Shown here: piece by piece, positions 16,766-59,021 of the stretch
Layout of the letters: each line of letters starts with the position of its first letter
How positions within the stretch are numbered: position 1 is the stretch's first letter
Virus record (IMG/VR): IMGVR_UViG_3300022562_001814
Span: 1-64,000 of that record
Origin: a virus
Strand: one strand, 5' to 3'
DNA length: 64,000 bases
Made by a program: the position numbers and the translations under genes
Notes under the pieces: model-generated
Database searches by the model: none
Told to the model about the DNA's origin: nothing
Seen by the model: only the letters and a program-made list of their open reading frames with translations

Positions 16766-19700
16766 ATGAGTTTTGTTAGTTTACACAATCATTCTTATTA
16801 TTCTATTCTTGATGCTTTGCCATCACCTAAAGAACTTTTTCGTAGGGCTAAAGAATTAAATCAACCCGCCCTTGCTTTAACAGATCATGGTTCGTTCGCC
16901 GGCGCTTGGGATGCATATAAGGCATCAAAAGAAACTGGTGTTAAATTAATTATTGGATCTGAATTTTATTTTTTATCTGATGCTTCTAAAAAAGATGAAA
17001 AAGTTAGACACATAATTTTATTAGCTAAAAATAATTCTGGTTATAGAAATTTATTATCTTTAAATAGATCAGGATTTGACAATCCTATTATTACTGGTAG
17101 GAAAGTTATTCCAATTATTGATTGGAATCTATTATCTAAATATTCTGATGGGGTTATTTGCCTAACGGCTTGTGGTAATGGTATAATTGGACAGCATATC
17201 AATGCAAAAAATTTTGCTGCGGCAGAAAATGATATCAAACATCTTATAGATATTTTTGGAACCGATAATTTGGGTATAGAGGTTCAACCACACGCTTTAA
17301 GTAGGCAGGCAACGCTTTATCACAATGGTATTAATCAGGTTTTTACTAATTTTCATTTAATAAAATTAGCAGAAAAATTTAATCTTAAAGTAGTACCAAC
17401 AACAAATACTCATTATCTTAAAAAAGAACATGCTCCCATGCATGATGTATTATTAGCAATTGGTGCTATGCAACCAATTTATTCTAATGCAAGATTAAAA
17501 TATCCGGTACATGAATTTTATCTTAAATCATATGAAGAAGTAAAAGCATTTTTTGCTAGAAATTTTGGCGATTCCTTTGCCGAAGAAATTTGTAAAAACT
17601 CATTATATTTTGCTGACAAATGCGAAGAGCCAGATTGGATTGATCCTAAATTTTCTAATCCATATGGAAAAGAATTGCCAGTTTTTGCTGTTAAAGAAAC
17701 AAGTGATTATGATAAATTTCAAGATTGGTTAGTCAAACAGTCGGATAAAATACAAAAATTGTCGGAAGATTCGGCTTATCTAAGATTTAAATGTTATGAG
17801 GCTTTTGATCTTAAATTTAAGAATAAATTATCGCTTATAAAGCACAAAGAATATATTGAAAGAATAGAAGAAGAGCTATCTGTTTTAGATTATCAGGGAT
17901 TTAGCTCATATATGTTAATTGTTGCAGATTATATTAATTGGGCAAGAAAAAATAATATTGGAATAGGTCCTGGTAGAGGGAGCGTTGGGGGCTGTTTTAT
18001 TGCATATTTGCTAGGAATTCATAAAGCAGATTCCATACGATATGGACTTATTTTTCCAAGATTTCAAAATAGAGAACGTTCCAGCCCACCAGATATCGAT
18101 CAAGATATAGCAGCTTCAGATAGAGAAAAGGTCATATCATATATTCAACAAAAATATGGACAAGATAAAGTAGCTTTCGTTTCTAATTTTAGTCGTATTA
18201 CTCCCAAAGTTTACGCAAGAGATATTGCAAGATCTTTAGAATTTGGCGGGAACAGAAAAGAAGCTGTTAATATTGGGAATTCAATTGCTGATTCAATTTC
18301 TAAAGAATCTAAAAATTCAATAGATTTTAATGATCTTAAATTAAGTCCTTTATTTATGGAATATGTAAAAAGATATCCTAATCTTGCTTCTAATTCTGAA
18401 ATTTTAGGTAAAATTAGAAATTTTTCTACTCATGCAGCCGCACTCGTTATTTCTAATAGACCTCTTATAGGGTTAGTTCCGGTTAGAAAAGATAAAGATG
18501 GGCATCAAGCTTTAGAATATGAAAAATATAATACAGAAGAAAATGGTCTTCTTAAAATAGATGTTTTGGGATTATCAACTTTGGATTTGATAGAACAAAC
18601 TATTTTACTTATTAATAAAAACAAAAAGAATAAACCAATATCTTTAGAAGATATTGATTTTGAAGATTATGATAAAAAAACATATGATCTTATTTCTAAA
18701 GGAGATACTTACGGGGTATTTCAATTAGGAACAAGTGCCGGTACTATTGATTTATGTAAAAAAATAAAACCTAAAAATATAGAAGATTTGGCAATTATTA
18801 CAACTTTGGCCCGCCCCGCCGCCAAAAATATTATAGATGATTTTATTAAAACACGAGAAGGTAAGCGTGAATTTAAATTATTACATCCTTCATTAAGAAA
18901 TGCTTTTGAAAAAACATATGGGTTTGGTTTGTTTGATGAATCAATTTTACAACTAGGTAAAGATGTAGCTGGTTGGTCTCTTAATGAATCTGATCGTATT
19001 AGAAAAATGATTAAGGAAAAAGGTAAAGATCCAAATAAAGCCAAAAAACTAAGAGAAGAATTTATTGATGGTGCAATCAAAAATGGTATTGGTCGAACCA
19101 TGGCATCTAAAATTTGGGATGAAGAAATTAATAAATTCCAAGGGTATACATTTAATAAATCACATGCCGTACTATATTCTTTTATTTCATATATTACGGC
19201 TTATTTAAAGGCCCATTATCCTGTAGAATTTTTACTAGCTAATTTAATAGCTGAAAATAATTCTAATACCCCAGATGCAGAGGAAAATATAGATAAAGCT
19301 AAAATGGAATTACGTAGATATGGAGTTAATATACTTCCTCCAGATATTAATAAATCTGAAATGGAATATCAATTATTGAATAATAATACGTTATTGACCG
19401 GATTAGATGCTTTAAAATATGTAGGACATGATGCTATTCAAGACATTATTAATAAAAGACCGTTTACTAGTTTTGATGATTTTATGTTAAGAGTAGATAC
19501 AAGAAAAGTAAGATCTTCAGCAATTCAGGCGTTAGCTGCAAGCGGGTGCTTAGATATTTTTAATATTACAAGAAGATCTATTTATTTATATTGTTCTGAT
19601 TATCGTAAAAAATTACAAGTTTGGCTCAAAAAACATGATCCTAAAACTGAAAAATTTAATTTTCCTTGGCCAAATGAATCTGAATGGTCTAAATCAGAAT

Positions 19701-20284
19701 TATTTGCTTTAGAAAAACATTATTTAGGAGAAGCTTTTATTTGTCCTAAAAAAGAAGCATTCGGAACCTTCTTTTTTACAAAAACACATGCTAATATTTC
19801 AACAATTAAATTAAGTAAAAATAGAACATTTTTACCATCAATTAAAGCTGAAATTAAAACAATTTTTGAATTAAAAATAAAAAAGGAAAATAGTAGGTTA
19901 ATAGGCCAGGAAATGGCTAAAGTTGGTATAGAAGACGAATTTGGAATTCAATGTAATTTAACTATATTTCCCGATCGTTGGCAAGAAGTTAAAAAAAGAA
20001 TGAAAATTAATGGTAAAGGGAAAGCGTATTTTGAACCTGGATGTGTTATTCATTTTGCCGGAACTTGTAATTTATATGAAAATGAAATGGGTGTTATTTT
20101 AGAAACATTATTAGAAAGTATGCCTCCTCCAGCGCTTCCACGTGATTTAAAAGCTAGAAAAGTTGCTATTAAAGATTCTGTAACTATCTCGGAAAATTCT
20201 GATTTAATTACCGAGTTAGAAGATCAGTTATTTACAGAAGGTCTTATAGATTTGGATGAAGATCCGTTTTCTTTGGATATATAA
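16766..20284 (+). CDS. dnaE: DNA polymerase III alpha subunit (C-family DnaE)
   Basis: Replicative polymerase of bacterial C-family type. The PHP domain is at the N-terminus (VSLHNHSYYSILD; LALTDHGSFAGAWDA; IGSEFYF; TTNTHYL). The palm has GIGPGRGSVGGCFIAYLLGI, the catalytic pair D443/D445 in PPDIDQDI, and the third Asp D599 in LKIDVLGLSTLD. FSTHAAALVIS and FNKSHAVLYSFISY are further DnaE hallmarks. A helix-hairpin-helix and an OB-like part (VGIEDEFGIQCNLTIFPDRW) follow. At 1172 residues it is full length. It sits alone behind an 85-bp gap with a GAGAGG ribosome site, and the neighbouring ssb, recA and primase genes belong to the same replication set. Confidence 0.96.
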   Translation: MSFVSLHNHSYYSILDALPSPKELFRRAKELNQPALALTDHGSFAGAWDAYKASKETGVKLIIGSEFYFLSDASKKDEKVRHIILLAKNNSGYRNLLSLNRSGFDNPIITGRKVIPIIDWNLLSKYSDGVICLTACGNGIIGQHINAKNFAAAENDIKHLIDIFGTDNLGIEVQPHALSRQATLYHNGINQVFTNFHLIKLAEKFNLKVVPTTNTHYLKKEHAPMHDVLLAIGAMQPIYSNARLKYPVHEFYLKSYEEVKAFFARNFGDSFAEEICKNSLYFADKCEEPDWIDPKFSNPYGKELPVFAVKETSDYDKFQDWLVKQSDKIQKLSEDSAYLRFKCYEAFDLKFKNKLSLIKHKEYIERIEEELSVLDYQGFSSYMLIVADYINWARKNNIGIGPGRGSVGGCFIAYLLGIHKADSIRYGLIFPRFQNRERSSPPDIDQDIAASDREKVISYIQQKYGQDKVAFVSNFSRITPKVYARDIARSLEFGGNRKEAVNIGNSIADSISKESKNSIDFNDLKLSPLFMEYVKRYPNLASNSEILGKIRNFSTHAAALVISNRPLIGLVPVRKDKDGHQALEYEKYNTEENGLLKIDVLGLSTLDLIEQTILLINKNKKNKPISLEDIDFEDYDKKTYDLISKGDTYGVFQLGTSAGTIDLCKKIKPKNIEDLAIITTLARPAAKNIIDDFIKTREGKREFKLLHPSLRNAFEKTYGFGLFDESILQLGKDVAGWSLNESDRIRKMIKEKGKDPNKAKKLREEFIDGAIKNGIGRTMASKIWDEEINKFQGYTFNKSHAVLYSFISYITAYLKAHYPVEFLLANLIAENNSNTPDAEENIDKAKMELRRYGVNILPPDINKSEMEYQLLNNNTLLTGLDALKYVGHDAIQDIINKRPFTSFDDFMLRVDTRKVRSSAIQALAASGCLDIFNITRRSIYLYCSDYRKKLQVWLKKHDPKTEKFNFPWPNESEWSKSELFALEKHYLGEAFICPKKEAFGTFFFTKTHANISTIKLSKNRTFLPSIKAEIKTIFELKIKKENSRLIGQEMAKVGIEDEFGIQCNLTIFPDRWQEVKKRMKINGKGKAYFEPGCVIHFAGTCNLYENEMGVILETLLESMPPPALPRDLKARKVAIKDSVTISENSDLITELEDQLFTEGLIDLDEDPFSLDI

Positions 20285-37181: not shown

Positions 37182-39023
37182 ATGCCAGATGACACGTTTG
37201 ATAAAATTAAAAATTCTATATTAAATTTAGATCCTGTTGTCTGGGCACAAAATAATTTAACTTTAGATGGCAAACCTTTTAGATTAGTTGAAACTGGGTA
37301 TAAACCAATTGTTGATATATTACGTTATATTTGCGTTAAGGGATTAGATAGAAATTCTAAACCTGTTATTTGGGTAAAAGGACGTCAGGTAGCAGGAACA
37401 ACAACAGCTGGTGTAAGCTCTTTATATATGTTAGCTTCAGAGATATTCGGTAACGAATATAGTCCGCCTATTAGAGTTGTACATTTGTGGCCAACGCTAG
37501 ATCGAGCAGCTGCTTATTCTAAAACAAAATTAGCTGCTATGATAGACAATTCTGTTATGGTGGACGATCCTTCTGGAAAAAAAGGTAAAAAACCGTTAGT
37601 TAGATCTTTATTAGATACATCTTCTCCCACCAATGATAATATACAATTTAAACAATTTAAAGGTGGTAATCATATTTGGATTGAATCTGCCGGATTAGAT
37701 GGTTCTAGATTACGCGGTAAGACAGCAGATGTATTATTGATTGATGAGTGCCAGGAAATTCCTGGAACAGCCATAGCCAATGCAACAAAAATTTTAACTA
37801 AAGCACAATACGGTGTTTTAGGTGAAGGTATGCAAATGTATTTTGGTACACCTTTACAACGTGGTTCTGAATTTTGGAATCTTTGGCAAAAGTCCTCACA
37901 ACAATATTATCATCTTGGTTGTGAAAAATGTGCAAAATATTTTCCACTCTATACTCCAGGATCTGATGAATGGGAATCCATTTGGTTATATGAAAATATA
38001 GTTAAATGTACACATTGCGGTTGCGAACAAGATAGAATGGAAGGAGTTAATAGAGGCAAATGGATTCCAATTAAAGATCCAGAAGATGCTAAATTTATTG
38101 GATTTCATTTAAATCAACTTTATTTACCAGAATTTACTAAAGAAAAAATTTTAGATCAAAAGCCAGGTAATTCGGCAATTAATACTGAAAGAACTTATCA
38201 AAATGAAGTTCTAGGTGAATTTTTTCAAGGAGAAGCCGGTATTATTACTCCAGAGGAAATCAGAAATATATGTGGAGATCCTAAAAGAAAATTTAGAGGT
38301 ACAGTTGGTCCTAACGAAGAGATTATAACCTTTTTAGGTATAGATATTGGTGCTAAAGCCGATTTAGAACAATTGGTTAATTCAGATAAAGTAAAAAGAC
38401 AAGGACAAAGTTATAGTACTGCTGTAGTATTATCTTTAACTGGTCCTGGCAGACTTTCAATTGAGTATGCTTTTAAATTTAAAAGAAATGATTTAGCTAG
38501 TAAAAAAAGTGTATTAGATGAAACAATAAAAAGATACAGATGTAAATTAGCAATATGTGATATTGGTTATGCCCATGATTTTAATGAAATTATGCAAACC
38601 GAATATGGCGATATGTTCATTGCTTCACAGGCTTCAGGTAAAGTAAATAATAAAGTAAAATATAATGGTGATATTTTTCCAAAAGTTGTTTCTTTCGAAA
38701 GAGATTTTTGGATAATGGAACTTTATGAGCAAATGAAAAAAGGATTAATAAGATTTCCTTTAGGCAGTTATGAACAAATTGCTTGGTTAATACAACATTG
38801 TTCAAATATGGAAATTAAGCCAAGTGTTTCTAGAAGCGGTGATGTAAGTCCACACTACATAAAATCGGATGTAAATGATGGATTTATGGCATTATTAAAT
38901 GCCTATATTGCTTATAAATTTTATATTTCTAAAGGATTTCAAATAATTAATCCATTGTTACAAGATGTTTCGGCGAAAGCTAAAAATAAACCATCTGTAA
39001 TAGCGGTATATTCTGATAGGTAA
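37182..39023 (+). CDS. terL: Terminase large subunit
   Basis: ATP-driven DNA packaging motor and nuclease. The ATPase N-terminal part has the Walker A region IWVKGRQVAGTTTAGVSSLY (Gly67-Thr75), lacking the usual lysine. Walker B is DVLLIDECQEIPG and the coupling motif is MQMYFGTPLQRGSEFW. A CxxC...CxxC zinc-ribbon insert follows (CEKCAKYFP, CTHCGCEQDR). The C-terminal RNase H-fold nuclease begins FLGIDIGAKADLE and continues LAICDIGYAHDFNE. Length 613. The portal gene starts 4 bp downstream. The zinc insert recalls the lambda gpA branch of terminases. Confidence 0.9.
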   Translation: MPDDTFDKIKNSILNLDPVVWAQNNLTLDGKPFRLVETGYKPIVDILRYICVKGLDRNSKPVIWVKGRQVAGTTTAGVSSLYMLASEIFGNEYSPPIRVVHLWPTLDRAAAYSKTKLAAMIDNSVMVDDPSGKKGKKPLVRSLLDTSSPTNDNIQFKQFKGGNHIWIESAGLDGSRLRGKTADVLLIDECQEIPGTAIANATKILTKAQYGVLGEGMQMYFGTPLQRGSEFWNLWQKSSQQYYHLGCEKCAKYFPLYTPGSDEWESIWLYENIVKCTHCGCEQDRMEGVNRGKWIPIKDPEDAKFIGFHLNQLYLPEFTKEKILDQKPGNSAINTERTYQNEVLGEFFQGEAGIITPEEIRNICGDPKRKFRGTVGPNEEIITFLGIDIGAKADLEQLVNSDKVKRQGQSYSTAVVLSLTGPGRLSIEYAFKFKRNDLASKKSVLDETIKRYRCKLAICDIGYAHDFNEIMQTEYGDMFIASQASGKVNNKVKYNGDIFPKVVSFERDFWIMELYEQMKKGLIRFPLGSYEQIAWLIQHCSNMEIKPSVSRSGDVSPHYIKSDVNDGFMALLNAYIAYKFYISKGFQIINPLLQDVSAKAKNKPSVIAVYSDR

Positions 39024-39027
39024 ACAA

Positions 39028-41946
39028 ATGACAGAAGAACAAAATAAATTTATTCCACCAGTTACTCCAACTATGTATAAAGCCGTCTCTGAATATCGTC
39101 GAGCTGAATTAGAAGGAGAGGTTAATAGGGGTTTATTTAGAGACGGTTCAACTAGAACTAAAGAATCTAATTTATCTCCAGCATCATATGCTGTACCCGG
39201 CGCTGTCAAATATGCTCAAAGTTATGAAGCTTCAGCTGCTAATTCATTTAAAGGTGGGGTAGGTAATACAACTCAACAAATACCTGAAGTATATTCCCCT
39301 TTATGGTTAACTAGTAATTTAAATTTACCTCGTGACCGGGCAACAATGAATGCTTGGTGCCGTAGTTTTTATGCTTTAAATCCTATTGTACAAAATGCTA
39401 TTAATTTACACAGTACATATCCAATTAGTAAATTAAACATTAAATGTCCTAACAAAAAAGTAGAGAATTTATTTAATGAACAAATAGAAGAATTAGGATT
39501 AATGAATATATGTTCACAAGCAGCTCAAGAATATTGGCTATTGGGTGAAGCGGTTGTTTACGGAGAATTAGATGAAAGAAATGCCAAATGGTCAAGATTA
39601 CTTATTCAAAACCCTGATTATATAGTTATTAAAAGATCAGTTATAGCTAATGAGCCTATAATTATGTTAAGACCTGATGAAAATTTAAGACGTATTTGTA
39701 TGTCAAATTTGCCGTCAGATATTGAACAACGTAAACAACTTAATGAAACTATTATTGAATACGTAAGAAGAGGGCAAAATATTCCTTTAGATAATTTGTA
39801 TGTTTCTCATTTGGCTAGAAAAATTAGCCCCTATGAAGTAAGAGGTACTGGTCTTCCGGTAAGTGTTTTTCGTTCATTAATGTTGTTCGACTTAATTAAA
39901 GAATGCAAATTCGCTCAGGCCCAAGATATGATTAATCCTATGCGTATTATTAAAATTGGTGGCGGTACGGCTGATTATCGAGCTAATCCTGTCGATTTAG
40001 ATGCTTGGAGAGAGGTTTGGGCCTGTCACGACGAAGATACTGAGGTTCTTACTAATAATGGTTTTAAAAAAATTACAGAAATAACTTCATTTGAAGAAGA
40101 CAATAATTTAATATCTAATATTAAATGTAATGATAATATAAAGATAGCTTGTTTTAATCCTAATAACGAGAGATTAGAATATTATAAACCACTAGAAACT
40201 CATATTTATAATTATAGTGGTGAAATGTATCACTTCCATAATAAAAAAGTTGATGTAAAGGTTACACCAAATCACGATATGTGGGTTTCAACAAAAGAGG
40301 TTTATTATCACGGCTCATCTGAGTCGAGAGAAGAAAAGTGGAGCGAATGGAGAAAAGTAAAGGCAGAAGATATAAAACTATCTTATGGGAACAAATTTAG
40401 ATCAACGGTTAATTGGGTGGGTGAAGAGCCGAGTGAAGTTGATATTATTGGAAATAAAGTGCCAATTGAATTATATTTAAAATATCTTGGATATCTTATT
40501 AGCGAAGGCTCGTTAGTTAAATATGGTAAATATAAATTTACTACCCAATATTGTCAAACTCATTCTAAATATTATGAGGAAATGAGAGATACAGCCAATG
40601 AAATGGCTTTATTTTTAAATAAATATTGTTATGAATACAAAGATTATAGGTCTACTTATACAAATAATTGTAAAGATATTAGTTCATTTATATTTAATGG
40701 TAAAGATATATTTGATCATTTTAAATCTGAAATATCAACTGATGGAAATTCCACATCTTTATTTAAAAAGTTGCCAAAATGGGTATTAACCTTGTCCCCA
40801 AGATTATTAAAAATATTGTTAAATGCAGCTTGTCAAGGCGATGGTTCATTTAAATTAAATAAAAACAATACTGTTGGATATGAGTATTATACCACTTCTA
40901 AAGAATTGTCAGATAATATATATGAGATAGCATTTAAAGCCGGCTATGCCCCAGTGTTATCAACTAGCCAAGATAAAAGAGATAATAGAAATCTTATTTA
41001 TAGGATTAGATGGTCAGAAAATATAAGTGGTAAATATCCGTATATTTATAAATATTCAACGAATTCAAATACAAAAGAAAAGAAAGATACCTTTAATAAA
41101 GAAATTTATAACGGTAAAGTATGGTGTTTTACAGTTCCTACCGGATTATTTATTACACGGAGAAATGGTAAAATAACAATTCAAGGTAATAGCGCGACAG
41201 CTGATAAAAATTTCAAAATTTTTACTCACGACGCTGTCAACGTTGAAACTGTTGGCGCCGGGCAAGGCATTTACGATACTAGTAATGATTTTACTCAATT
41301 ACTTAAAGAAATGTATGCTGGATTGATGGTTCCACAAATTATTATTGAAGGCGGTGGAGATATTACATATGCTAATGCTGGAGTATCATTAGATGTATTA
41401 CGTCAACGTTATATGCAATTTAGAAATATGATGGCAGCTTGGTTGCGTAAGAAAATTTTTCAACCTATTGCTAAATTAAATGAATTCTACGATTATGTAG
41501 ATGGAGAGAAGGTTCTTATTATTCCGGAAGTTGATTGGAATCATATGAGTCTTTTTGATCTTGAATCATATGTGCAAACCTTACGTGATTTAACAACTGG
41601 AGAACAAGGTGGTAAGCGAGTTTCTGTACATACATTATATCGTTCTTTAGGTCTTGAATGGGAAGAAGAACGTCGTAAAATTCGTAAAGAAGATATCGCT
41701 GAAGCAATTAGAAAAAAAGAGCAGGCTTCTTTGGATAAAATGACACTTAATGAATTAAGAACTTTAAATGAAGAAGATGAAATTCCGGAAATTTTAGAAA
41801 CCCCATTACCTGGCGAAAGTCCTTACGATACTGGTTCGTCAGGTGCCGAAGGCGGTCCTGGTGGTCCTGGCGGGTTGCCGGGCTTGGAGCCCGGAGCTGC
41901 TCCTCCAGAAATGCCAGCTCCACCTATACCTCCTCCAACTCCTTAA
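39028..41946 (+). CDS. Portal protein interrupted by an endonuclease-bearing intein
   Basis: Dodecameric portal through which DNA enters the head. The extein is 583 residues: LPRDRATMNAWCRSFYALNP, then ISKLNIKCPN, ALNPIVQNAINLHSTYP, and QAAQEYWLLGEAVVYGELD are typical of phage portals placed directly after terL. After the intein, FKIFTHDAVNVETVGAGQGI then LKEMYAGLMVPQIIIEGG and LRQRYMQFRNMMAAWLRKKI finish the clip and stem. The C-terminus is Gly/Pro-rich. The intein (residues 333-721) splits a surface stretch: REVWA | SATADKNF. Splicing should restore an ordinary portal. Confidence 0.88.
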   Translation: MTEEQNKFIPPVTPTMYKAVSEYRRAELEGEVNRGLFRDGSTRTKESNLSPASYAVPGAVKYAQSYEASAANSFKGGVGNTTQQIPEVYSPLWLTSNLNLPRDRATMNAWCRSFYALNPIVQNAINLHSTYPISKLNIKCPNKKVENLFNEQIEELGLMNICSQAAQEYWLLGEAVVYGELDERNAKWSRLLIQNPDYIVIKRSVIANEPIIMLRPDENLRRICMSNLPSDIEQRKQLNETIIEYVRRGQNIPLDNLYVSHLARKISPYEVRGTGLPVSVFRSLMLFDLIKECKFAQAQDMINPMRIIKIGGGTADYRANPVDLDAWREVWACHDEDTEVLTNNGFKKITEITSFEEDNNLISNIKCNDNIKIACFNPNNERLEYYKPLETHIYNYSGEMYHFHNKKVDVKVTPNHDMWVSTKEVYYHGSSESREEKWSEWRKVKAEDIKLSYGNKFRSTVNWVGEEPSEVDIIGNKVPIELYLKYLGYLISEGSLVKYGKYKFTTQYCQTHSKYYEEMRDTANEMALFLNKYCYEYKDYRSTYTNNCKDISSFIFNGKDIFDHFKSEISTDGNSTSLFKKLPKWVLTLSPRLLKILLNAACQGDGSFKLNKNNTVGYEYYTTSKELSDNIYEIAFKAGYAPVLSTSQDKRDNRNLIYRIRWSENISGKYPYIYKYSTNSNTKEKKDTFNKEIYNGKVWCFTVPTGLFITRRNGKITIQGNSATADKNFKIFTHDAVNVETVGAGQGIYDTSNDFTQLLKEMYAGLMVPQIIIEGGGDITYANAGVSLDVLRQRYMQFRNMMAAWLRKKIFQPIAKLNEFYDYVDGEKVLIIPEVDWNHMSLFDLESYVQTLRDLTTGEQGGKRVSVHTLYRSLGLEWEEERRKIRKEDIAEAIRKKEQASLDKMTLNELRTLNEEDEIPEILETPLPGESPYDTGSSGAEGGPGGPGGLPGLEPGAAPPEMPAPPIPPPTP
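40024..41190 (+). mobile_element. Intein with LAGLIDADG homing endonuclease (389 residues)
   Basis: Starts at Cys333 (block A CHDEDTEVLTNNGFKKITEI). Block B is VDVKVTPNHDMWVS. DOD/LAGLIDADG motifs are YLKYLGYLISEGSLVKYGKY and LLNAACQGDGSFKLNKNN. The C-terminal splicing block is VWCFTVPTGLFITRRNGK...QGN, followed by extein Ser722. The residue before the terminal Asn is Gly instead of His, as in other phage inteins ending '(R)RNGK...GNS'. The endonuclease motifs look intact. Confidence 0.93.
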
Positions 41947-47650: not shown

Positions 47651-50600
47651 ATGTTTACTAAAATAGGCGAATTATCAGAAATTAGTTCAAATAATGTTCA
47701 ATCTGTAGAATCGGTATTGGCAGAATTAAATGATACTGATATTAATGAACATTTTAGAAAATTTGCAACTCAATTAAAAAGAATTGCTCCCAAAGCTGAT
47801 GATTTTCTTTATTTTAGCTGTGTAATGATGACTGCCGCTGAAGCTTCAGCTTTAAATTCTGACGGAACCCCCAAATTATCTAAAGATGGTAGTCCTATTA
47901 AAGTTAGTTGGGAAGTATCTCCTTCAGGTTCTTGGAAATGGGTTAGCAATGATCCGTCCATTCAAGCTTATAAAAATCATAATGGTGATATATTTGCTGA
48001 AGCAGAATTATTAAAAGCTTATAAAAAATGGGTTGGAAAGCCTCTTTGTATTGATCATAAATCAGATTCTGTAGATGCTATTAGAGGTATTATATTAGAT
48101 ACTTATTATGATCGTTTAAATAAAAAAGTAATAGCATTATGTGCTTTAGATAAAATATCATATCCAGAATTAGCTCGCGGTATTACTAGTGGTTATAAAA
48201 CCTCAGTATCAATGGGTACGAGAGTTGGTAAGGCTATATGTTATGATTGTGGGCAAGTTGCTACGGCAGAACGTGAATTTTGTCAACATATGCGGTCTAA
48301 ATCTTGTTATGGGGAAATAAATGTTGATTTAGATCCGATAGAACTTTCAATAGTGGTTAATGGAGCTGATCCCCAGGCTAAAATTCGTACAATTTTAGCT
48401 GCAGCTAATGATTTACGTCACAATATTGAAAATAAAGAAGAAGAAATTAATAAACTTTCAACTAACCACGCTTCGGCGTCAAAGTTTAAAGAATTAGAAG
48501 AAGATTTAAAAAAAATATCTGATAAGTTAGCTGATTTAAAAGCGGATTTAGAACAAGAAGATAATGCTTCAGCTAATGATGCTCCTTACGGACAATCAGG
48601 TGATTTAAATATGAAAGAGTCGGATTTACCAAACACTGATCAAAGTTTAAGTTTTCCGGCTAGATTAGCATCTAATAATAATGCATTAATAAGTGAATTG
48701 CAAGATTTGCGAAATTCTGTTAATGCTATGGAAAAGAGTTTAGTTACTTTATCGCATAAAATCAAAGAGGAAATTATGTCTGTTAATTCAAATAATGGTA
48801 TAAACAAAGAAGGTTATTTTCAAGGTGCTGGCGGAGCAAACGAACCCGCCCCTCATCAAGTTAAATATCCAAAAGAACCAATGAATGAACAACTTCGTCA
48901 AACTGGCGATAAACATATGTTAGGCGTTGATAATATGGGTTCAGTTGATAGTATGTTTCCCGGCGATAAAGAAAAGAAAGAATTAGTACAACGCGCTGAA
49001 ATCGAAGAACGCGCTATGCGCCGTGCTGCCGCTCTTCAAAAAGCCAAGGAGAACCTAATGAAATCAAAAGAGGCATATTTCCAGGGCGGCGGAGATGTTA
49101 ATGAGCCCACCCCTGGCAAACCAAAATACACCAAAGATCCTTTGAATGAAAGAGATCGTGAAAAAGAAGATAAACAAATGGTTGGTAAAAAACCATTCCC
49201 AGATGTAGGTGATGTTGAAGATCTCTATCCAGAAGATAAGAAAAAGAAAGAATTACTTCAACGCGCTTCACTTAAAGCTAAATTCGTTAGAGTTGCTGGT
49301 GAAGATGGCGCTCAAGATATGGGGCAAAGCGGATGGCAAGTATCTCGTGATGGTGAAGTATTATTTACAGCCACAGTAGATGAAATTACTGGTGGCAATG
49401 TTGAAGGTTTATATGATGTAGTTGCTAGCAAAGAATTTGCAACTAAACTTTTGGAAAAAGTTTATAAAGTTGGGGCAGATAAAGCTGCTAAACTTTATAA
49501 AGGCGCACAGGCTGTCGCCGATGTTGGTATGCCTCCAGTTGCTGATGCAGGTGGACCCGCTCCGGTTCCCGCTATGGATATGGCTCCAGTAGGTGGAGCA
49601 GGAGTTCCTGCTAATGATTTTGAAGCGGCTCCTGAACACGAAGCTGCTCCCGAAGCAGAAGGTGATCCTAAAGAAGTTGCTCTTAAATTAGCTGAAGAAA
49701 TGCGTGATCGTGCTTCAGATTTATTGGAGGCAGTTAGAGTGTTAACTGGTGAACAAACTGAAATGGGTGAATTAGAAGGTTTAACTGAAAAAGCAGCTTC
49801 TCAAGAATTAAAGCCACTCGTTAAAATGAAGAAAACACTTAATGCTTCACTAATTGTTGGTATGAAACAAGCAATTGCTGAACTTCACGAACACCAAGAA
49901 GAATTGAATCTTATTAGTGATATCCTTGATGAAGGAACACATAATGATTACACAGATACAGTTATTGATGAAGCTATAGTTGATGCAAAACATGCTTTAG
50001 CAGATGTTAGAGATTTAATGTTAGCGTTTGTTAAATATGCTCGTGGTTCTGAACAACTTGTTAAACAAGCTCAATCTTTAGATATGTCAATGGGTGATGA
50101 TATGGCTATGGATGATGATATGTCCGTAGATGATGATATGTCAATGGGTGACGACATGGCTGTGGATGATGATATGGGTATGGATGATGATATGTCGATG
50201 GCTATGGATATGGATAAAGATGATGAAGAATGTGATACAGCTATGGATGATGATATGGCTGAATCCGATGAAAATGAAGTAATGGTTGATGTAGACCCTA
50301 GTTCATTACAAGGCAAAAAAATTGAATTAAAATCAGCTCAACTTAATTCAAAAGAAGCTCGCGCAGAACTTCGTGCAAAATTGGCTGCAGAGGCACTTAA
50401 ATTTTCTCCAATGTTAGATGAAGCTAATAGATTAGCTGATGGACAAACTGAACTTGACGTTAAACCATCTGATAATTTAGGCAGAGTTGAAACATTGCCA
50501 GAACAACACAAAGTTATGCTCGATGTCGCTGAAGCTCCTCCAAAAGTTCGTAAAGGTGCTGCACGTCTAGATACACTTATTAAACAAAAGAAAGTTGCTG

Positions 50601-51043
50601 TTACAGATCTAGATACTCTTGTTGCACAAGGATTAGATTCAGAAGTTGTTAAATACTGGAAACAATTCTATGGCGAAGCTGGTAAAGAGGGTTCCGAATT
50701 TGCTTCAGATCTTCTTAAAGAACATGCCAAAGCTCAAGTTGATGAAGAGGTTAGTAAATTTAAAATTAAAATTTCTCGTGCTTATGAGCTTACCAATGAA
50801 ATGGTACGTCGTGGACTTGTAGCTGATGAACGCGCCGCAATCACTGCTCAAGTTGATGATATGATGTCCTGGAACGACGAGGGTTTTGAGGCTATGAAAC
50901 GCGTTGTTAATAAACATCCATTAAAAAAATCAGCTTCATTTCCTCAAGTAGGTATGATAGGTTCAGGCGAGCCGGTCTCGCAAGTTCAAGAATTTAGTTT
51001 ACAAGATGCTTTAGACCAGGCTTTTGCTAATCGTAGATTCTAA
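47651..51043 (+). CDS. Prohead protease fused to acidic scaffold-like region
   Basis: A 1130-residue protein. The first ~260 residues look like a phage head-maturation protease of the S78/U9-type group: KPLCIDHKSDSVDAIRGIIL (His136), GYKTSVSMGTRVG (Ser187 the likely nucleophile) and a CYDCGQVATAEREFCQHM cysteine cluster. Then a helical linker (residues 260-370) and two copies of a ~90-residue block starting EGYFQGAGGANEP (Tyr389) and EAYFQGGGDVNEP (Tyr476). Residues ~811-880 are an Asp-Met-rich repeat. A helical C-terminus follows. In-frame starts with good ribosome sites at 48776 and 49058 could give separate scaffold forms, as in lambda C/Nu3. The catalytic assignment is inference. Confidence 0.78.
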   Translation: MFTKIGELSEISSNNVQSVESVLAELNDTDINEHFRKFATQLKRIAPKADDFLYFSCVMMTAAEASALNSDGTPKLSKDGSPIKVSWEVSPSGSWKWVSNDPSIQAYKNHNGDIFAEAELLKAYKKWVGKPLCIDHKSDSVDAIRGIILDTYYDRLNKKVIALCALDKISYPELARGITSGYKTSVSMGTRVGKAICYDCGQVATAEREFCQHMRSKSCYGEINVDLDPIELSIVVNGADPQAKIRTILAAANDLRHNIENKEEEINKLSTNHASASKFKELEEDLKKISDKLADLKADLEQEDNASANDAPYGQSGDLNMKESDLPNTDQSLSFPARLASNNNALISELQDLRNSVNAMEKSLVTLSHKIKEEIMSVNSNNGINKEGYFQGAGGANEPAPHQVKYPKEPMNEQLRQTGDKHMLGVDNMGSVDSMFPGDKEKKELVQRAEIEERAMRRAAALQKAKENLMKSKEAYFQGGGDVNEPTPGKPKYTKDPLNERDREKEDKQMVGKKPFPDVGDVEDLYPEDKKKKELLQRASLKAKFVRVAGEDGAQDMGQSGWQVSRDGEVLFTATVDEITGGNVEGLYDVVASKEFATKLLEKVYKVGADKAAKLYKGAQAVADVGMPPVADAGGPAPVPAMDMAPVGGAGVPANDFEAAPEHEAAPEAEGDPKEVALKLAEEMRDRASDLLEAVRVLTGEQTEMGELEGLTEKAASQELKPLVKMKKTLNASLIVGMKQAIAELHEHQEELNLISDILDEGTHNDYTDTVIDEAIVDAKHALADVRDLMLAFVKYARGSEQLVKQAQSLDMSMGDDMAMDDDMSVDDDMSMGDDMAVDDDMGMDDDMSMAMDMDKDDEECDTAMDDDMAESDENEVMVDVDPSSLQGKKIELKSAQLNSKEARAELRAKLAAEALKFSPMLDEANRLADGQTELDVKPSDNLGRVETLPEQHKVMLDVAEAPPKVRKGAARLDTLIKQKKVAVTDLDTLVAQGLDSEVVKYWKQFYGEAGKEGSEFASDLLKEHAKAQVDEEVSKFKIKISRAYELTNEMVRRGLVADERAAITAQVDDMMSWNDEGFEAMKRVVNKHPLKKSASFPQVGMIGSGEPVSQVQEFSLQDALDQAFANRRF
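48776..51043 (+). CDS. Predicted nested scaffold product (in-frame internal start)
   Basis: ATG 48776 lies in frame with the larger gene and has AGAGG five bases ahead; it would give 755 residues (MSVNSNNGINKEGYFQG...). A second in-frame ATG at 49058 has a perfect AAGGAG six bases ahead and would give 661 residues (MKSKEAYFQGGG...). Both start just before a YFQG(A/G)GG repeat, so each product would begin with that motif. Both lack the protease domain. Phage head genes of this kind often make scaffold this way. Expression is predicted only. Confidence 0.5.
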   Translation: MSVNSNNGINKEGYFQGAGGANEPAPHQVKYPKEPMNEQLRQTGDKHMLGVDNMGSVDSMFPGDKEKKELVQRAEIEERAMRRAAALQKAKENLMKSKEAYFQGGGDVNEPTPGKPKYTKDPLNERDREKEDKQMVGKKPFPDVGDVEDLYPEDKKKKELLQRASLKAKFVRVAGEDGAQDMGQSGWQVSRDGEVLFTATVDEITGGNVEGLYDVVASKEFATKLLEKVYKVGADKAAKLYKGAQAVADVGMPPVADAGGPAPVPAMDMAPVGGAGVPANDFEAAPEHEAAPEAEGDPKEVALKLAEEMRDRASDLLEAVRVLTGEQTEMGELEGLTEKAASQELKPLVKMKKTLNASLIVGMKQAIAELHEHQEELNLISDILDEGTHNDYTDTVIDEAIVDAKHALADVRDLMLAFVKYARGSEQLVKQAQSLDMSMGDDMAMDDDMSVDDDMSMGDDMAVDDDMGMDDDMSMAMDMDKDDEECDTAMDDDMAESDENEVMVDVDPSSLQGKKIELKSAQLNSKEARAELRAKLAAEALKFSPMLDEANRLADGQTELDVKPSDNLGRVETLPEQHKVMLDVAEAPPKVRKGAARLDTLIKQKKVAVTDLDTLVAQGLDSEVVKYWKQFYGEAGKEGSEFASDLLKEHAKAQVDEEVSKFKIKISRAYELTNEMVRRGLVADERAAITAQVDDMMSWNDEGFEAMKRVVNKHPLKKSASFPQVGMIGSGEPVSQVQEFSLQDALDQAFANRRF

Positions 51044-51054
51044 TAGGAAATATT

Positions 51055-51657
51055 ATGAAAAATGATGCAAATACAATTGCAGCCTCAATGGATGCGATAT
51101 TACAAGATCCCGACCACAAAAAACTTTTTTCTTCTTCAACTATTCTTGAAAAATTAGCTTTCAAGAGAACTGCAGATGAAGAAGTTTCTACAGAAATAGA
51201 AATTGAATTTGCAGATGAAATGGCAACTTCTCTTGAAACCGAGGCATCAGAAAAAAGTGGCGGGGTTAGTTGCGATTCTAAAAAAGAGGCTATTAAAATG
51301 GGTGATAATTTATTTAAATCGGCTTTTGATGCATTACTTCAGGCTTCGGATGATTTAGAAGAAGCCGGATTTGAAGAATTATCTGTAAATGCATTAATAC
51401 TTGCTAATAGTTTGGTTGTAGAAGCTAAAGCTAAAAAAGATCCAAAAGCTAAAGAAAAAGCGGAGAAAGAAAAAGCTGCTAAAGAAAAAGCTGCTAAAGA
51501 AAAAGCCAAAGCTAAAGCAAAAGCAGAGAAAGAAAAAGCGTTAGCTAAAGCTAAAGCTGAAAAAGAAAAAGCCGCTACAGAAAAAGCTAAAGCTAAGGCT
51601 AAAGCTGAAAAAGAAAAAGCATTAGCCAAGGCAAAAGCTGATAAAAAGAGCAAATAA
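51055..51657 (+). CDS. Head-core-like protein with long Lys/Ala/Glu helical tail
   Basis: A 200-residue protein. The first ~120 residues are acidic and helical (MDAILQDPDHKKLFSSSTIL; DNLFKSAFDALLQASDDLEE). The last ~75 are an almost pure Ala-Lys-Glu repeat (AKAKAEKEKALAKAKAEKEK-type), which should form a single charged helix and could bind DNA or other head proteins. It lies between the scaffold gene and a related K-rich protein, overlapping the latter by one base. Histone-H1-like by composition only. Confidence 0.7.
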   Translation: MKNDANTIAASMDAILQDPDHKKLFSSSTILEKLAFKRTADEEVSTEIEIEFADEMATSLETEASEKSGGVSCDSKKEAIKMGDNLFKSAFDALLQASDDLEEAGFEELSVNALILANSLVVEAKAKKDPKAKEKAEKEKAAKEKAAKEKAKAKAKAEKEKALAKAKAEKEKAATEKAKAKAKAEKEKALAKAKADKKSK

Positions 51658-53096: not shown

Positions 53097-54248
53097 ATGA
53101 CATATACATTAAAAGATCTTAAACATTTAGAAGTAATCGCCGAATTAGAGAAAAAAGAACCTATGCCTGAAAAACAAATTAATTTAAATTTGTTTACGGA
53201 TAATAAACCAAAAGCGCAAGGAACTCAAGAAAAAATTCTCACTCTTTGCGCTAAGCTTAGAAAAGAAGGATTTGACAAACAAGCTAATGCTTTAGAAAAT
53301 AAATTTATGTCTTATAAAATGGCTACCACTCATTTATATAGAGCGATAGATGAAGACGGAGAAGATGTCATCAATTCTGCTCATCCAGATGGTGAAGTTA
53401 AAGTAGAAGATGCTGATAATGATTTAGGCGTTGTCGAAACCGGATTAACACAACATAAAAAAATAGTTGATATTATTAATAAAAAACCAACTGGTAAATT
53501 AGCCAAATATGTTTTAGAATGTCAAGAAATTTTAAAACAAGGACAAGCTACAATGGGAGTATATACTCTATATAAATTATATCAATCAGCTAAACAGTTA
53601 TGGGGAGACTTAGTTGAAAAAGCGGAAGTTGTTAAATCAAAATTAGATTCTTTATCTTCTGACGGAGATGCAAGAAAAAATCCAAAATTAATAGAATTAA
53701 TTTCTGATGCTAAAGTTGAAATAACATCTGTTATAAGTGATAAGGCTTTTTTTGAATCTGTTGGTATGAGTGGTGCAGAATCAGGAATTTCTGGTGGAGA
53801 AATCGATCGTCATTTAAATGATTTAAATAAATTAAAAGAAAAATTAACAGATCTTAAAAAAGAAATAGACAGAACATTTACGGCCTTAACTCGAGGTATT
53901 AAAGGTAAATTATATCATTATACATTTAGCACTATTTTTAAAGAAGCAAAAGAAAGTATTCAAAACTTTGAAGAAGAATTATATTTAATGCTGCACACGT
54001 TATCAAATATGAAAGAAAAAAATTCTCCAACAGTTGTCACAAATAGTATAGATACTTCTATAAATCAATTGAATGTCTGGTCTAATTCTTTAAATCAAAG
54101 AACAGATCTTAATGATGAAATGAAAACCAAAATTAATGTTTGGATTCAAGCTCAAATTCAAGAAATGAAAGATAATGCAAATAATCCAGAAAAATTGAAA
54201 GAATTATTAAAAGAGAATGAAAATTTTAAAGCAGCCTGGAAATTATAA
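53097..54248 (+). CDS. Hypothetical virion protein
   Basis: ATG 53097 (MTYTLKDLKHLEVIAELEKK) is preferred because GGAG lies 7 bases ahead; a TTG at 53061 would add 12 residues. The 383-residue product is helical with a conserved-looking patch HLYRAIDEDGEDVINSAHPD and GLTQHKKIVDIINKKPTGKL. A helical region with coiled-coil character follows (DRHLNDLNKLKEKLTDLKKE). No named family. It overlaps the next gene by one base. Confidence 0.69.
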   Translation: MTYTLKDLKHLEVIAELEKKEPMPEKQINLNLFTDNKPKAQGTQEKILTLCAKLRKEGFDKQANALENKFMSYKMATTHLYRAIDEDGEDVINSAHPDGEVKVEDADNDLGVVETGLTQHKKIVDIINKKPTGKLAKYVLECQEILKQGQATMGVYTLYKLYQSAKQLWGDLVEKAEVVKSKLDSLSSDGDARKNPKLIELISDAKVEITSVISDKAFFESVGMSGAESGISGGEIDRHLNDLNKLKEKLTDLKKEIDRTFTALTRGIKGKLYHYTFSTIFKEAKESIQNFEEELYLMLHTLSNMKEKNSPTVVTNSIDTSINQLNVWSNSLNQRTDLNDEMKTKINVWIQAQIQEMKDNANNPEKLKELLKENENFKAAWKL

Positions 54249-55459
54249 TGATTTTTAAATTTTCCCAAAAACCAACTATGCCAATTCCAGATGGAACGAC
54301 ATCTAATGTTTCTGTTCAAACAAAACCACAAATGCCAGTTCCAGATGGAACGACATCTGAACCAATGGGTGTTAAAGATATGTTTGGACAAGTTTGGCCT
54401 GTAAATTCTAATATGGGGAAGATGCTTGTTAACACGGCTATTAGTCAAGGCACCAAACCTGATTATGTATATAATATCGAACAAGCTGTAAGCCCCGCCC
54501 AGACTCCATCTTCCGTTTCTGTTCATGATTTACCTCCGGTAAAAAGAACACCTATTAATGTTAAAATTCCTGCCGTTGCAGAAATGCAACAAGCGATAAT
54601 CGCTTTATCTAAAGATATTGCATCCCAAGATGTTTTACATAGCGCAAAAACAGATGGTAATTTACAGCAAATAGAAGGTGCTGATCCATTTTTAAATTTT
54701 CTTGTTACAAACTATATGCAAGCCGCCCCCAAAACCGGACAACAAGTTGTTAGCGGTGATATGGGTATGCCTATCAAACAAGAAACTACCACCAAATTAG
54801 AAAATTTTAAAGGTATGTTAAATACTTTAAAAAATATAGGTTCTCGAGGTTCTGAACAAACTCCAGATGGTATTTGGGGTTTTAGAACTAATAATGCTTT
54901 AAATAATATCTATGCGCTCGCATACACGCTTATGCACGTACAAAAAGATATAAATATCGAACCAAGTATTTATACTGAAGAAGATTTAATTGAATTACAC
55001 GACAATATTCCCGAAGATAGTAAGGTATTAACCACAGATCAAAAAGTTTTAAGCGCTATTGTTATTACAAAAAATCTTAATAAATTTAGAGCGGTATATG
55101 ATAGCTTTAGAGAAAAAGTATTAAATAACCCAACTTTAAAATCAAAAATCACTCAAGAACAACCCCTTTTAATTAAAAAACCGGTTTCTTCCACTACACC
55201 GTTATCACAATATGAACGTGATTTATATTCAAAATACAAAACAACAGAATTAAATACAATTGTAAATGGTCAAACAGTAACTGTAATGCCTTTTAATTTA
55301 TTCAATATTGATAATTTTAAAAAATATTTAAAAAGCAAAGCGCCTATTATAGGTTTATCAAAAGAAGAATTAGATGCCATTCAAAAATCTACTCCAGAAG
55401 GACAAATGTTAGTTAATAAATTTTTGACAGAAATTGCTAATAGTATGGGGCAGGAATAA
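54248..55459 (+). CDS. Hypothetical virion protein with N-terminal duplicated motif
   Basis: A 403-residue protein. The N-terminus repeats MPIPDGTTS / MPVPDGTTS within 20 residues, a tandem DNA duplication at about 54279-54357. It continues with a helical domain, including GSRGSEQTPDGIWGFRTNNA, which recalls the 'DGxxGxxTxxAl' pattern of peptidoglycan-binding-like domains. That would fit a virion protein, but the match is weak. The stop overlaps the next start by one base. Confidence 0.66.
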   Translation: MIFKFSQKPTMPIPDGTTSNVSVQTKPQMPVPDGTTSEPMGVKDMFGQVWPVNSNMGKMLVNTAISQGTKPDYVYNIEQAVSPAQTPSSVSVHDLPPVKRTPINVKIPAVAEMQQAIIALSKDIASQDVLHSAKTDGNLQQIEGADPFLNFLVTNYMQAAPKTGQQVVSGDMGMPIKQETTTKLENFKGMLNTLKNIGSRGSEQTPDGIWGFRTNNALNNIYALAYTLMHVQKDINIEPSIYTEEDLIELHDNIPEDSKVLTTDQKVLSAIVITKNLNKFRAVYDSFREKVLNNPTLKSKITQEQPLLIKKPVSSTTPLSQYERDLYSKYKTTELNTIVNGQTVTVMPFNLFNIDNFKKYLKSKAPIIGLSKEELDAIQKSTPEGQMLVNKFLTEIANSMGQE

Positions 55460-56175
55460 TGACATTTTTGCATCAAGATGATATTTTAGGTGAATTAATC
55501 ATTAAATCGGGTGCTTTTAATGAATTGATCAAACAAGCTCAACAAACTAATAATGATCTTAAATTACTTACAACTAAATTGTTAAATAATTTAATGAATC
55601 AAGCCGTTCAAGCCGGACCGGGAACAAAAATTTATACCGGTGATTTGGTAAGTTTAGATAAGTTTTTAAATTATCTTTATTCTCATCAAAATGAAGAACA
55701 ATTTGATAATCAAGCTATAGTATATAAAGAAGATGGGGCAAAACTACCTCCTAATCCAGAAGAATATATTAAATTTCATGGATTTTTAGTATCGCCTGCA
55801 GGGTTTTGGTCTAAAATACATGAATTAGAAAATTTAGCTGAAAAACCAGAAAATAATTTATTAAAACCTTTTATTAAAAATTTAAAAGATTCTGGCGCAC
55901 AAACATTTGGTGAGGACACTTCTCAAACTATATCTCCTAATGAAATTCTAGAACGCGGCATCAATCCTGAACAAAACGGACAAACTGCCAAACCATCCGG
56001 AGCAGGACAAGCAGGACAAGCAGGACAAGCAGGACAAGCAGGACAAGCAGGACAAGCAGGACAAGCAGGACAAGCAGGACAAGCAGGACAAGCAGGACAA
56101 GCAGACAAGCAGAAATTGTACCAGTCTCATATAAAGCACAACAAGCCGCTCAACAAGAGCTTACGCAAAATTTAA
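55459..56175 (+). CDS. Virion protein N-terminal part with Gly-Gln-Ala repeat; frame lost after the repeat
   Basis: A 238-codon frame with an ordered N-terminal ~175 residues (GELIIKSGAFNELIKQAQQT; YIKFHGFLVSPAGFWSKIHE). It then has 11 exact copies of Ala-Gly-Gln and a short frame-shifted end. The last repeat unit lacks one G (GCAGACAA instead of GCAGGACAA), which throws the ribosome out of frame and gives a 24-residue nonsense tail to the TAA at 56173. Restoring one base joins it to the frame ending at 56648 for a ~396-residue protein. This is either a real frameshift mutation, an assembly error at the repeat, or recoding. Confidence 0.75.
   Translation: MTFLHQDDILGELIIKSGAFNELIKQAQQTNNDLKLLTTKLLNNLMNQAVQAGPGTKIYTGDLVSLDKFLNYLYSHQNEEQFDNQAIVYKEDGAKLPPNPEEYIKFHGFLVSPAGFWSKIHELENLAEKPENNLLKPFIKNLKDSGAQTFGEDTSQTISPNEILERGINPEQNGQTAKPSGAGQAGQAGQAGQAGQAGQAGQAGQAGQAGQAGQADKQKLYQSHIKHNKPLNKSLRKI
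56002..56100 (+). repeat. 11 tandem copies of the 9-bp unit GCAGGACAA
   Basis: Eleven exact copies (99 bp) in phase with the reading frame, each encoding Ala-Gly-Gln. A twelfth, one-base-short copy (GCAGACAA) follows at 56101. Copy-number change by slippage would keep the frame, but the missing base does not. Confidence 0.96.
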
Positions 56176-56282
56176 AAAATCTTAGCACTAATTTACCTTT
56201 TCAACGAGATGATGTAATTAGACCGTATGATTTACAATCTTTTATTAATAATGTAAGCAAGATAGTATCTGCGTATCCCGGA

Positions 56283-56648
56283 ATGAATGAATCTTTAAAA
56301 AATGAATTTATTCAATTTACCAATACAATGTCAGGGACTATTAATGCTTGGGAAGGATTCATTAATAAAAACGCAAGTAAATATCCTCAAGTAAAATCTT
56401 TTCAAACTCAAGTTCCGTATAATAGATCGGCTAATGCTGAAGCAACATTATCCCAAATTTTTGGAGATACTCCAAATGCTAGAACAGCAGCTCAGATTTT
56501 ATTAAGAATGATAATTTTAGTTAATCAAACTTTATTAAGTTTGCGTCAAATAGAAGGTCTTAATCAAAGATTAAGTCCAGAAGTTGTGTCTGAACAAGTT
56601 AAAAGAGCACAAAACTTCATATATAATTTACAAGCTTTTGTCGGATAA
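56283..56648 (+). CDS. C-terminal part of the frameshifted virion protein
   Basis: The frame is open from about 56110 (VPVSYKAQQAAQQELTQNL...) with no ATG until 56283, so upstream sequence is clearly coding. It has helical content (IRPYDLQSFINNVSKIVSAY; ARTAAQILLRMIILVNQTLL; VSEQVKRAQNFIYNLQAFVG). As written, translation can only restart at ATG 56283, giving 121 residues. More likely it is the C-terminal half of the gene starting at 55459, split by the one-base loss at the repeat end. Confidence 0.65.
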   Translation: MNESLKNEFIQFTNTMSGTINAWEGFINKNASKYPQVKSFQTQVPYNRSANAEATLSQIFGDTPNARTAAQILLRMIILVNQTLLSLRQIEGLNQRLSPEVVSEQVKRAQNFIYNLQAFVG

Positions 56649-56651
56649 TGA

Positions 56652-57722
56652 ATGAATAAATCAGATAAACAATTTATTTTACAGACAATGCAGATTGAAC
56701 GGCTACTCCATGATCCATCTATGGATAAAACTGCTCAAGATTTTTTGTCTGGAGTTGTATCTGATATTAAAAATAAAGTTACTGGACTTAAATCAGTAGA
56801 AGATGTTTTAGGGTTTTTAGTGCCAGGAATATTTTGGACATTAGGATTTAAAAAATTATCTCTTGTATATACGGTAGCGGAAGCACTTGGATTTAATTTT
56901 TCTGATTTTTTAAGTTCAATTAGAGAAAAATTAAAACCAATTTTAGAAGATTTGTTTGCAGGAAAACAAACAGAAGCTTCAACTATTTCAAATATAGTAG
57001 CACAAAGTGCAAGCGAAGCAACAACTGATAATGTTGATCCGGAAAAATTTCAAAAAGCTGTTACATCTAGTTCTTTGAAAAATATGTTAGTAATTCAAGG
57101 ATTAATATTAGGTTTAGCAAAAAAAGCACGTCGCTCTTCTTCTACTTTAGAAGAAAAAATAAGAGAATTAGCTCAGTCTACTTTAGGGCGTAGAGCAAGA
57201 TCTGGTGTAGTAGGAATAATTGTTAGAGTATTTTCTTGGATTATTACAGTTATATTAATAAGTCTTGGATTAGGTGTTGGCGGTTCTGTTATTTCTAATT
57301 TAGTTAAAAGTAGATCAGAAGAAACTGGAGAAACCGAAGGAAATAAAGATCAAACGATAACACCAGCTTCAACTCAAGTACCCGTCCCTGAAAATGAACC
57401 AAATGTTAAATTATATTTAAATCCACAAGCCGATCAATCATTACTTACAACAACTTATAATGATTCAAGTCATGTATGGTTATTGCAACTTCCAATCACC
57501 CAAATACATGAGCTTTTAATTAAATGGGCTCAAGAATTATATCCAAATTTAAATAATAAATCTGCATTTGAATCAAGTAGTGTATTTAATCGTACATTAA
57601 GAATGTTTAAAGATAGAAATAAAGGTTCGGAACAATTAAATCTTATTGCTGTGCCTCAACCATTTAAATCAATAAAAGAAATTGTTGATAGTTTCGCTGC
57701 AGATGTAGCTTCTCATATGTAA
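56652..57722 (+). CDS. Membrane-associated hypothetical virion protein
   Basis: A 356-residue protein. Two hydrophobic stretches are visible: DVLGFLVPGIFWTLGF (about residue 55) and VVGIIVRVFSWIITVILISL then GLGVGGSVI (about residue 190), the second a good transmembrane helix. A DKTAQDFLSG segment near residue 25 carries the KxAQ-type motif. The C-terminal ~120 residues are soluble (VWLLQLPITQIHELLIKWAQ). It could be an internal or tail protein that enters the host membrane at infection; inferred only. Confidence 0.66.
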   Translation: MNKSDKQFILQTMQIERLLHDPSMDKTAQDFLSGVVSDIKNKVTGLKSVEDVLGFLVPGIFWTLGFKKLSLVYTVAEALGFNFSDFLSSIREKLKPILEDLFAGKQTEASTISNIVAQSASEATTDNVDPEKFQKAVTSSSLKNMLVIQGLILGLAKKARRSSSTLEEKIRELAQSTLGRRARSGVVGIIVRVFSWIITVILISLGLGVGGSVISNLVKSRSEETGETEGNKDQTITPASTQVPVPENEPNVKLYLNPQADQSLLTTTYNDSSHVWLLQLPITQIHELLIKWAQELYPNLNNKSAFESSSVFNRTLRMFKDRNKGSEQLNLIAVPQPFKSIKEIVDSFAADVASHM

Positions 57723-57734
57723 TGAAGGAATATT

Positions 57735-59021
57735 ATGCCTCGTATGAAATCTGAAATTTTTGAAAATTATTCTCTTATAGCCGATCGTGTAGGTTTAACT
57801 AAATTAGCTGAAGATTCTGCTGAATTAGAAAAATATAAAAATGACGCTGAAGCTAGGGCAGGATCTGATGATATTTCAACCATTGAAGCTCTTTATGGGG
57901 TGAAACCAGATGGACAAAATTATGAATGGAATATAATGGAAATTGCTCATCCAAAATCTGTTATTATTGCACCATCTTATGATAAAATAAATGGATTAGT
58001 AGAAAATAATATAGAACGAAATAGAATTATGAGTAATATTGCTCTTAAACCAACTACTGGTAATCATGCCAATCCTAAATATGCCCAACAAGAATTAATT
58101 ATGGAATTAGTGCGTGTCGGCAATGAAATGGATTCAAGAAATAATGAAGAATTATATAAACTTGCCGATGAATGTTTAATTAATTTACAAAAAGAAGCTT
58201 GGTCTTGGGAAGATGTGGAACAATTTTTTAAAGAAAAAAGCCAAGATGCCCCCGGTATTGGCGAAGGTGCTGCTGCTGGTGCGAGTATTGGCGCAACTAT
58301 TGGTGGATTATTGACTGCTTGGACCGGTGCAGGTATGTTGGCTGGAATTCCGGCTGGCGCAGCAACTGGTGCTGTTATCGGCGGGTTAATTGCCGCCATT
58401 ACTAAAACGGCTCCTCAAGTACAAAATGTTGCTTTAAATGCCGTAGAAGTTTCCGATCAATTAAAAGATTTACGTAAAAAGGTCCCAGAAAGTGAAGCAT
58501 TTTTTCAAGTAATTGATGAAGAATTAAATTCTTTAAGTGCAGCTGCTAATCGATATCAGGCAGCATTAAATACTCTTAAAGGTCACATGTTACAAAAACA
58601 AGATTCAACATCAGATCAATCAGAAGTAACAGAAGCTACTAAACAATTTTTAGAACATGTTGCGATTATCAAAAGTATTCATGGAGAATTTTCACGTAGA
58701 GCTAAAGCCGGCGCTTTTGCCAAAGCTAAACCTGGAAAAGCAATTGCTCCACTTTATTGGTTTATAGCTGATGATGTTGAAGACGTAGAAGATGCGTTTA
58801 CTGCTTTAGAAAATGCAATAGATAGATTAGAAAATGCCACGCAAACGGGTGTACAACAAGCAGCTAAATCCGCCCCAAAATCTTCGCAACCGATTAATCA
58901 ACCAACACAACCAACACAACCAACACAACCAACACAACCAACACAACCAACACAACCAACACAAACATCACCAGAACAAGAACAAGACAAAGGTGAAGAA
59001 TTTTTGCAAGCAATTGAATAA
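57735..59021 (+). CDS. Hypothetical virion protein with glycine-zipper and Gln-Pro-Thr repeat
   Basis: A 428-residue protein. The head is soluble (IFENYSLIADRVGLTKLAED). A glycine-zipper hydrophobic segment follows around residues 175-225 (GEGAAAGASIGATIGGLLTA, then GIPAGAATGAVIGGLIAAIT), a type that can insert into membranes. A helical part is followed by a Q-P-T tandem repeat near the end (from nt 58902). Together with the previous gene it may form a membrane-penetrating pair. No known family. Confidence 0.69.
   Translation: MPRMKSEIFENYSLIADRVGLTKLAEDSAELEKYKNDAEARAGSDDISTIEALYGVKPDGQNYEWNIMEIAHPKSVIIAPSYDKINGLVENNIERNRIMSNIALKPTTGNHANPKYAQQELIMELVRVGNEMDSRNNEELYKLADECLINLQKEAWSWEDVEQFFKEKSQDAPGIGEGAAAGASIGATIGGLLTAWTGAGMLAGIPAGAATGAVIGGLIAAITKTAPQVQNVALNAVEVSDQLKDLRKKVPESEAFFQVIDEELNSLSAAANRYQAALNTLKGHMLQKQDSTSDQSEVTEATKQFLEHVAIIKSIHGEFSRRAKAGAFAKAKPGKAIAPLYWFIADDVEDVEDAFTALENAIDRLENATQTGVQQAAKSAPKSSQPINQPTQPTQPTQPTQPTQPTQPTQTSPEQEQDKGEEFLQAIE
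58902..58964 (+). repeat. 7 tandem copies of the 9-bp unit CCAACACAA
   Basis: Seven exact copies (63 bp) encoding Pro-Thr-Gln in frame within the C-terminus of the gene at 57735. It has the same unit length and a similar style to the repeat at 56002, but here the frame stays open. Confidence 0.95.

Follow-up and report, generated by a model that had tools for sequence, protein, structure and literature searches.

An 11-copy tandem repeat in the genome record of an uncultivated virus is followed at once by a change of reading frame, and what resembles one gene is divided between two open reading frames (ORFs). This locus raises the question whether the division is a feature of the phage, be it a disabled gene, a recoding event, a switch or a gene fission, or an error in the record.

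Origin of the sequence

The DNA analysed here (the window) is taken from the record of an uncultivated virus, which is 200,737 bases long, and covers its bases 1-64,000. It contains the following landmarks:

16766-20284: DNA polymerase gene
37182-39023: terminase large subunit gene
39028-41946: portal protein gene
47651-51043: ORF for a protein with a head-maturation-protease-like part

Because genes for DNA polymerase, terminase, portal and a head-maturation-protease-like protein are present, the window was assigned to a large tailed phage. The isolated phages related to it are distant: the terminase shares about 24% identity with that of Bacillus phages, and the best match of a 1130-aa protein encoded in the window was part of gp19 of phage G. 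The ORF of this protein carries an in-frame 54-bp Asp/Met-rich repeat near its 3′ end (50081-50226), and the adjacent ORF contains a Lys/Ala-rich in-frame repeat (51422-51646). ARAGORN detected no tRNA gene in the 64-kb window of this large phage record.

The reading frame shifts where the array ends

The broken gene, named F here, occupies positions 55459-56648 between genes A and C, the latter being followed by gene D. It is composed of the following parts:

55459-56001, + strand: 5′ part of F (N-terminal part), frame 0; an ORF with coding-like codon usage and a match to the relative L017
56002-56100, + strand: 11 perfect copies of the 9-bp unit GCAGGACAA, encoding an Ala-Gly-Gln linker in frame 0
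56101-56108, + strand: odd 8-bp unit GCAGACAA, the site of the frame break
56109-56175, + strand: non-coding tail of the frame-0 ORF with TAA at 56173-56175; read in the -1 frame, this stretch is coding-like
56109-56648, + strand: 3′ part of F (C-terminal part), -1 frame; match to L017, alignment A3, LPF-like motif at 56193

The one-base frame break directly after an 11-copy 9-bp repeat, reported in a preliminary description of this DNA, was confirmed: eleven perfect units precede the 8-bp unit, and GCAGAAATT lies 3′ of it. The frame-0 ORF (55459-56175) encodes 238 aa and the second ORF (56283-56648) 121 aa. As described earlier, the -1 frame has no ATG, GTG or TTG codon after the array before the ATG at 56283. 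Its opening had been placed at about 56110 and has to be moved; all three frames pass through the array without a stop, so the -1 frame already opens far ahead of that position and runs from 55971 to the stop at 56648. The two frames overlap over 55971-56175.

Coding potential was expressed as log-odds per codon; the underlying codon model had been trained on 19 further window ORFs. Controls over 21 codons gave +0.45 (sd 0.21) for the true frame and -0.39 (sd 0.21) for a shifted frame. Before the array, frame 0 scored +0.49. After the array it fell to -0.75 (56110-56172), in agreement with the nonsense tail up to 56175 proposed previously, whereas the -1 frame scored +0.48 (56109-56174). The coding-like character ascribed to the second frame ahead of its first start codon was likewise found, with +0.29 at 56112-56282. 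This switch at the 3′ edge of the array demonstrates a true frame change in the given sequence, at most about 10 bases from 56101.

No X_XXY_YYZ heptamer is present in frame 0 within the overlap 55971-56175, which upholds the earlier statement that a classic slippery heptamer is missing. A_AAT_TTA near 56168 was considered as a slippery site and rejected; it is phased in the -1 frame instead of frame 0 and lies beyond the switch. The longest homopolymer in the overlap is an A6 run at 56174, which overlaps the stop codon and is located past the frame switch.

The array is the highest-scoring tandem array of the window, and the sole frame split found adjoins it. The GCAGGACAA repeat occurs nowhere else in the 200,737-base record, and a search of the record for a second copy of the region was negative. 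An audit for split frames, which covered about 21.8 kb of the window with homologues, revealed no other case; it is a rough guide only, as it depends on detectable homologues and missed gene F itself.

Related phages encode F in a single frame

The neighbours of F are arranged as follows:

54248-55459, + strand: gene A, conserved neighbour upstream of F (tblastn and synteny in relatives)
56652-57722, + strand: gene C, conserved neighbour downstream of F (synteny in relatives)
57735-59021, + strand: gene D, the most strongly conserved gene of the four, with its own in-frame 9-bp array at 58899-58964

Relatives were reached via the 1130-aa protein (23 loci) and alignment A1 of gene D (48 loci), the contigs of which partly overlap. 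The order A-F-C-D (54248-59021 in the window) is kept across dozens of huge-phage contigs of up to about 473 kb (L005-L024, L039-L076). Gene A alone and the C-terminal part of F alone retrieved no relatives from the viral collection because both diverge fast. Gene D had no match in bacterial and archaeal genomes, and tblastn with gene A, gene D or one F homologue retrieved no isolated phage record. PHROG and Pfam yielded weak matches for gene D and, leaving aside those driven by repeats, none for genes A, F and C. The block A-F-C-D of the huge-phage structural region is conserved and undescribed.

Comparison with relatives, which the preliminary description had proposed as a check, revealed F as one unbroken frame of 371-580 aa in 46 of 46 loci (36 distinct proteins). 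This count takes the loci with a complete F, leaving out those whose contig stops before it, and the distant members among them are weakly similar, so that their orthology rests mainly on position. A further locus looked at afterwards, L047, has a single 499-aa frame at the F position. In L017, the nearest relative spanning F, both halves are combined in one 432-aa frame. The N-terminal part of the window gene is 29% identical to L017 F over 148 aa (E 2e-7), and its C-terminal part matches residues 232-422 of the same protein (E 2e-10). The window gene thus shares with the family the position between A and C and similarity to L017 in both halves, and it alone departs from the single frame. Judged from these sequence comparisons, the two ORFs of the window belong to one gene split in two. 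Matches to a 27-base repeat pattern in L025-L028 were discarded; there the repeat occurs in other contexts without an F gene.

In-frame arrays are also found in gene D. Its 3′ end harbors a perfect 9-bp array of 7.3 copies of CAACCAACA, encoding a Gln-Pro-Thr repeat (58899-58964), and the L017 orthologue contains an unrelated 9-bp array of 8.9 copies of ATAAGTCTG at the corresponding 3′ end (L017 23139-23218). Different arrays have arisen at the same place of gene D in the window and in L017.

The array corresponds to a variable linker

In the relatives, F consists of an N-terminal part, a variable low-complexity linker and a C-terminal part with an LPF-like motif. A 32-row alignment set the C-terminal part of the window gene on this conserved motif (56193). 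Most relatives exhibit a Gly/Gln/Ala/Pro/Thr/Ser-rich stretch 32-62 residues ahead of the motif, as does the window, and several homologue linkers are tandem arrays in the DNA, for example in L063, L071, L041 and L023. The matching distance and the arrays in relatives indicate that the array of the window is a homogeneous form of a rapidly changing linker.

The predicted structure of L017 F had a mean pLDDT of 75.5 and a pTM of 0.50, with lower confidence at about residues 171-220, between two better predicted parts. Fold searches with this model returned nothing significant, and a PHROG search with six F homologues gave no match. The window ORF also matched tail-fibre and collagen entries, but mostly through its Gly-Gln-Ala repeat. 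F had been described as a virion gene. Family and fold matches do not back this assignment, while its position does: from its place among the structural genes, F is probably part of the virion or of its assembly.

Possible origins of the frame break

Weighing these data by judgement and not by computation, we consider an assembly or consensus error the probable cause of the break, albeit with considerable reserve; the phage itself would then carry an intact gene. Accordingly graded, the split of F is most likely not a biological feature. F is one conserved gene whose product has an N-terminal part and a mainly helical C-terminal part joined by a low-complexity linker. Its 9-bp Ala-Gly-Gln units keep the frame whatever their copy number, and in this record the last unit at the 3′ end of the array is one base short and places the C-terminal part out of frame. 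The short unit may have resulted from a fault where reads or contig ends overlap inside the repeat. In favor of such an error are the single-frame F of L017 and all 46 loci in A-F-C-D synteny, the linker nature of the array, the codon frame switch at its end, and the finding that the one split in about 21.8 kb of homologue-covered window adjoins the top array. The location at the edge of this array fits a merging error at a repeat end and equally slippage in the phage. On the other hand, the array (about 112 bp) is short enough to be spanned by many single short reads, and dropping a single base away from any long homopolymer is not the error that assemblers make most often. The literature on assembly errors at tandem repeats in phage metagenomes yielded nothing of direct use for this case.

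A true private deletion would leave an identical sequence. One base would have been lost from the last unit in the sampled phage or in part of its population, truncating F and removing its C-terminal part. Again by judgement, we regard this as unlikely without being remote. It takes the sequence as given, the edge of a homogeneous array is where replication slippage is expected, and a generally error-rich record is disfavored by the lack of other detected frame breaks. However, F is unbroken in 46/46 relative loci and therefore probably under selection, a truncated majority consensus would require a dispensable C-terminal part, and the codon signal of this part has not decayed. The unbroken F of all relatives and the normal codon usage of the C-terminal part favor the error over the deletion. 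Both remain from the three origins originally suggested, namely knock-out, error and -1 recoding, whereas recoding is disfavored.

Frameshifted genes outside homologue clusters were mostly attributed to indel mutation or sequencing error in the GeneTack work of Antonov and colleagues, who, to support programmed frameshifting, searched clusters for conserved motifs (PMC3711429). Like those unclustered genes, F has one indel, unbroken homologues and no conserved recoding motif; unlike them, its break abuts a long 9-bp array in the contig of an uncultivated phage.

Programmed -1 ribosomal frameshifting or transcriptional slippage could join the two frames and yield a short and a long F. The -1 direction and the overlap over 55971-56175 are compatible with this explanation. 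We nevertheless consider it very unlikely: there is no zero-frame slippery heptamer in the overlap, the shift site has no extended run of A or T, the RNA of 56101-56220 folds no better than shuffled sequences (z = +0.74, pseudoknots being outside the model), and none of the 46 relative loci has a frame change in F. The recurrent phage case of recoding, the tail assembly chaperone (lambda G/GT type; PMC10885494), resembles F in being a phage gene in two -1-related frames. In contrast to that different gene, F has neither a slippery heptamer nor a conserved frame change.

Still more improbable is a reversible, heritable on/off switch, in which gain or loss of the 8-bp unit among 9-bp units would toggle the frame and decide whether F includes its C-terminal part. 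The 8-bp unit lies inside the array and might in principle be lost by slippage, and arrays at the linker position vary greatly among relatives. Yet all linkers of the relatives are in frame, the window is a single example showing one state, and a surface or receptor-binding role of F would have to be presumed. Phase-variable genes based on simple sequence repeats (PMC3711429) share with F a tandem repeat at the frame break but differ in the unit. With a pure 9-bp unit, a multiple of three, changes in copy number leave the frame as it is, which excludes phase variation by this route; only an array mixing 8- and 9-bp units could switch. Just as implausible as the switch is a fission of F into two genes translated independently, with 56283 as the start of the second. 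An ATG is available there in the -1 frame, but it lies 107 bases past the first stop without a well-spaced Shine-Dalgarno sequence. Moreover, starting at 56283 would forfeit the LPF-like motif (56193) together with 58 coding-like codons, and none of the relatives shows a fission.

Significance

If the break is an artefact, it is a matter of annotation only: the two ORFs represent one interrupted gene of a conserved family and should be recorded neither as two genes nor as a case of recoding. Should the break prove real and switchable, the phage would have an uncommon means of varying one of its proteins. As a by-product of the analysis, F and its neighbours emerge as a conserved, undescribed block of the structural region, in which the linker has repeatedly become a tandem array.
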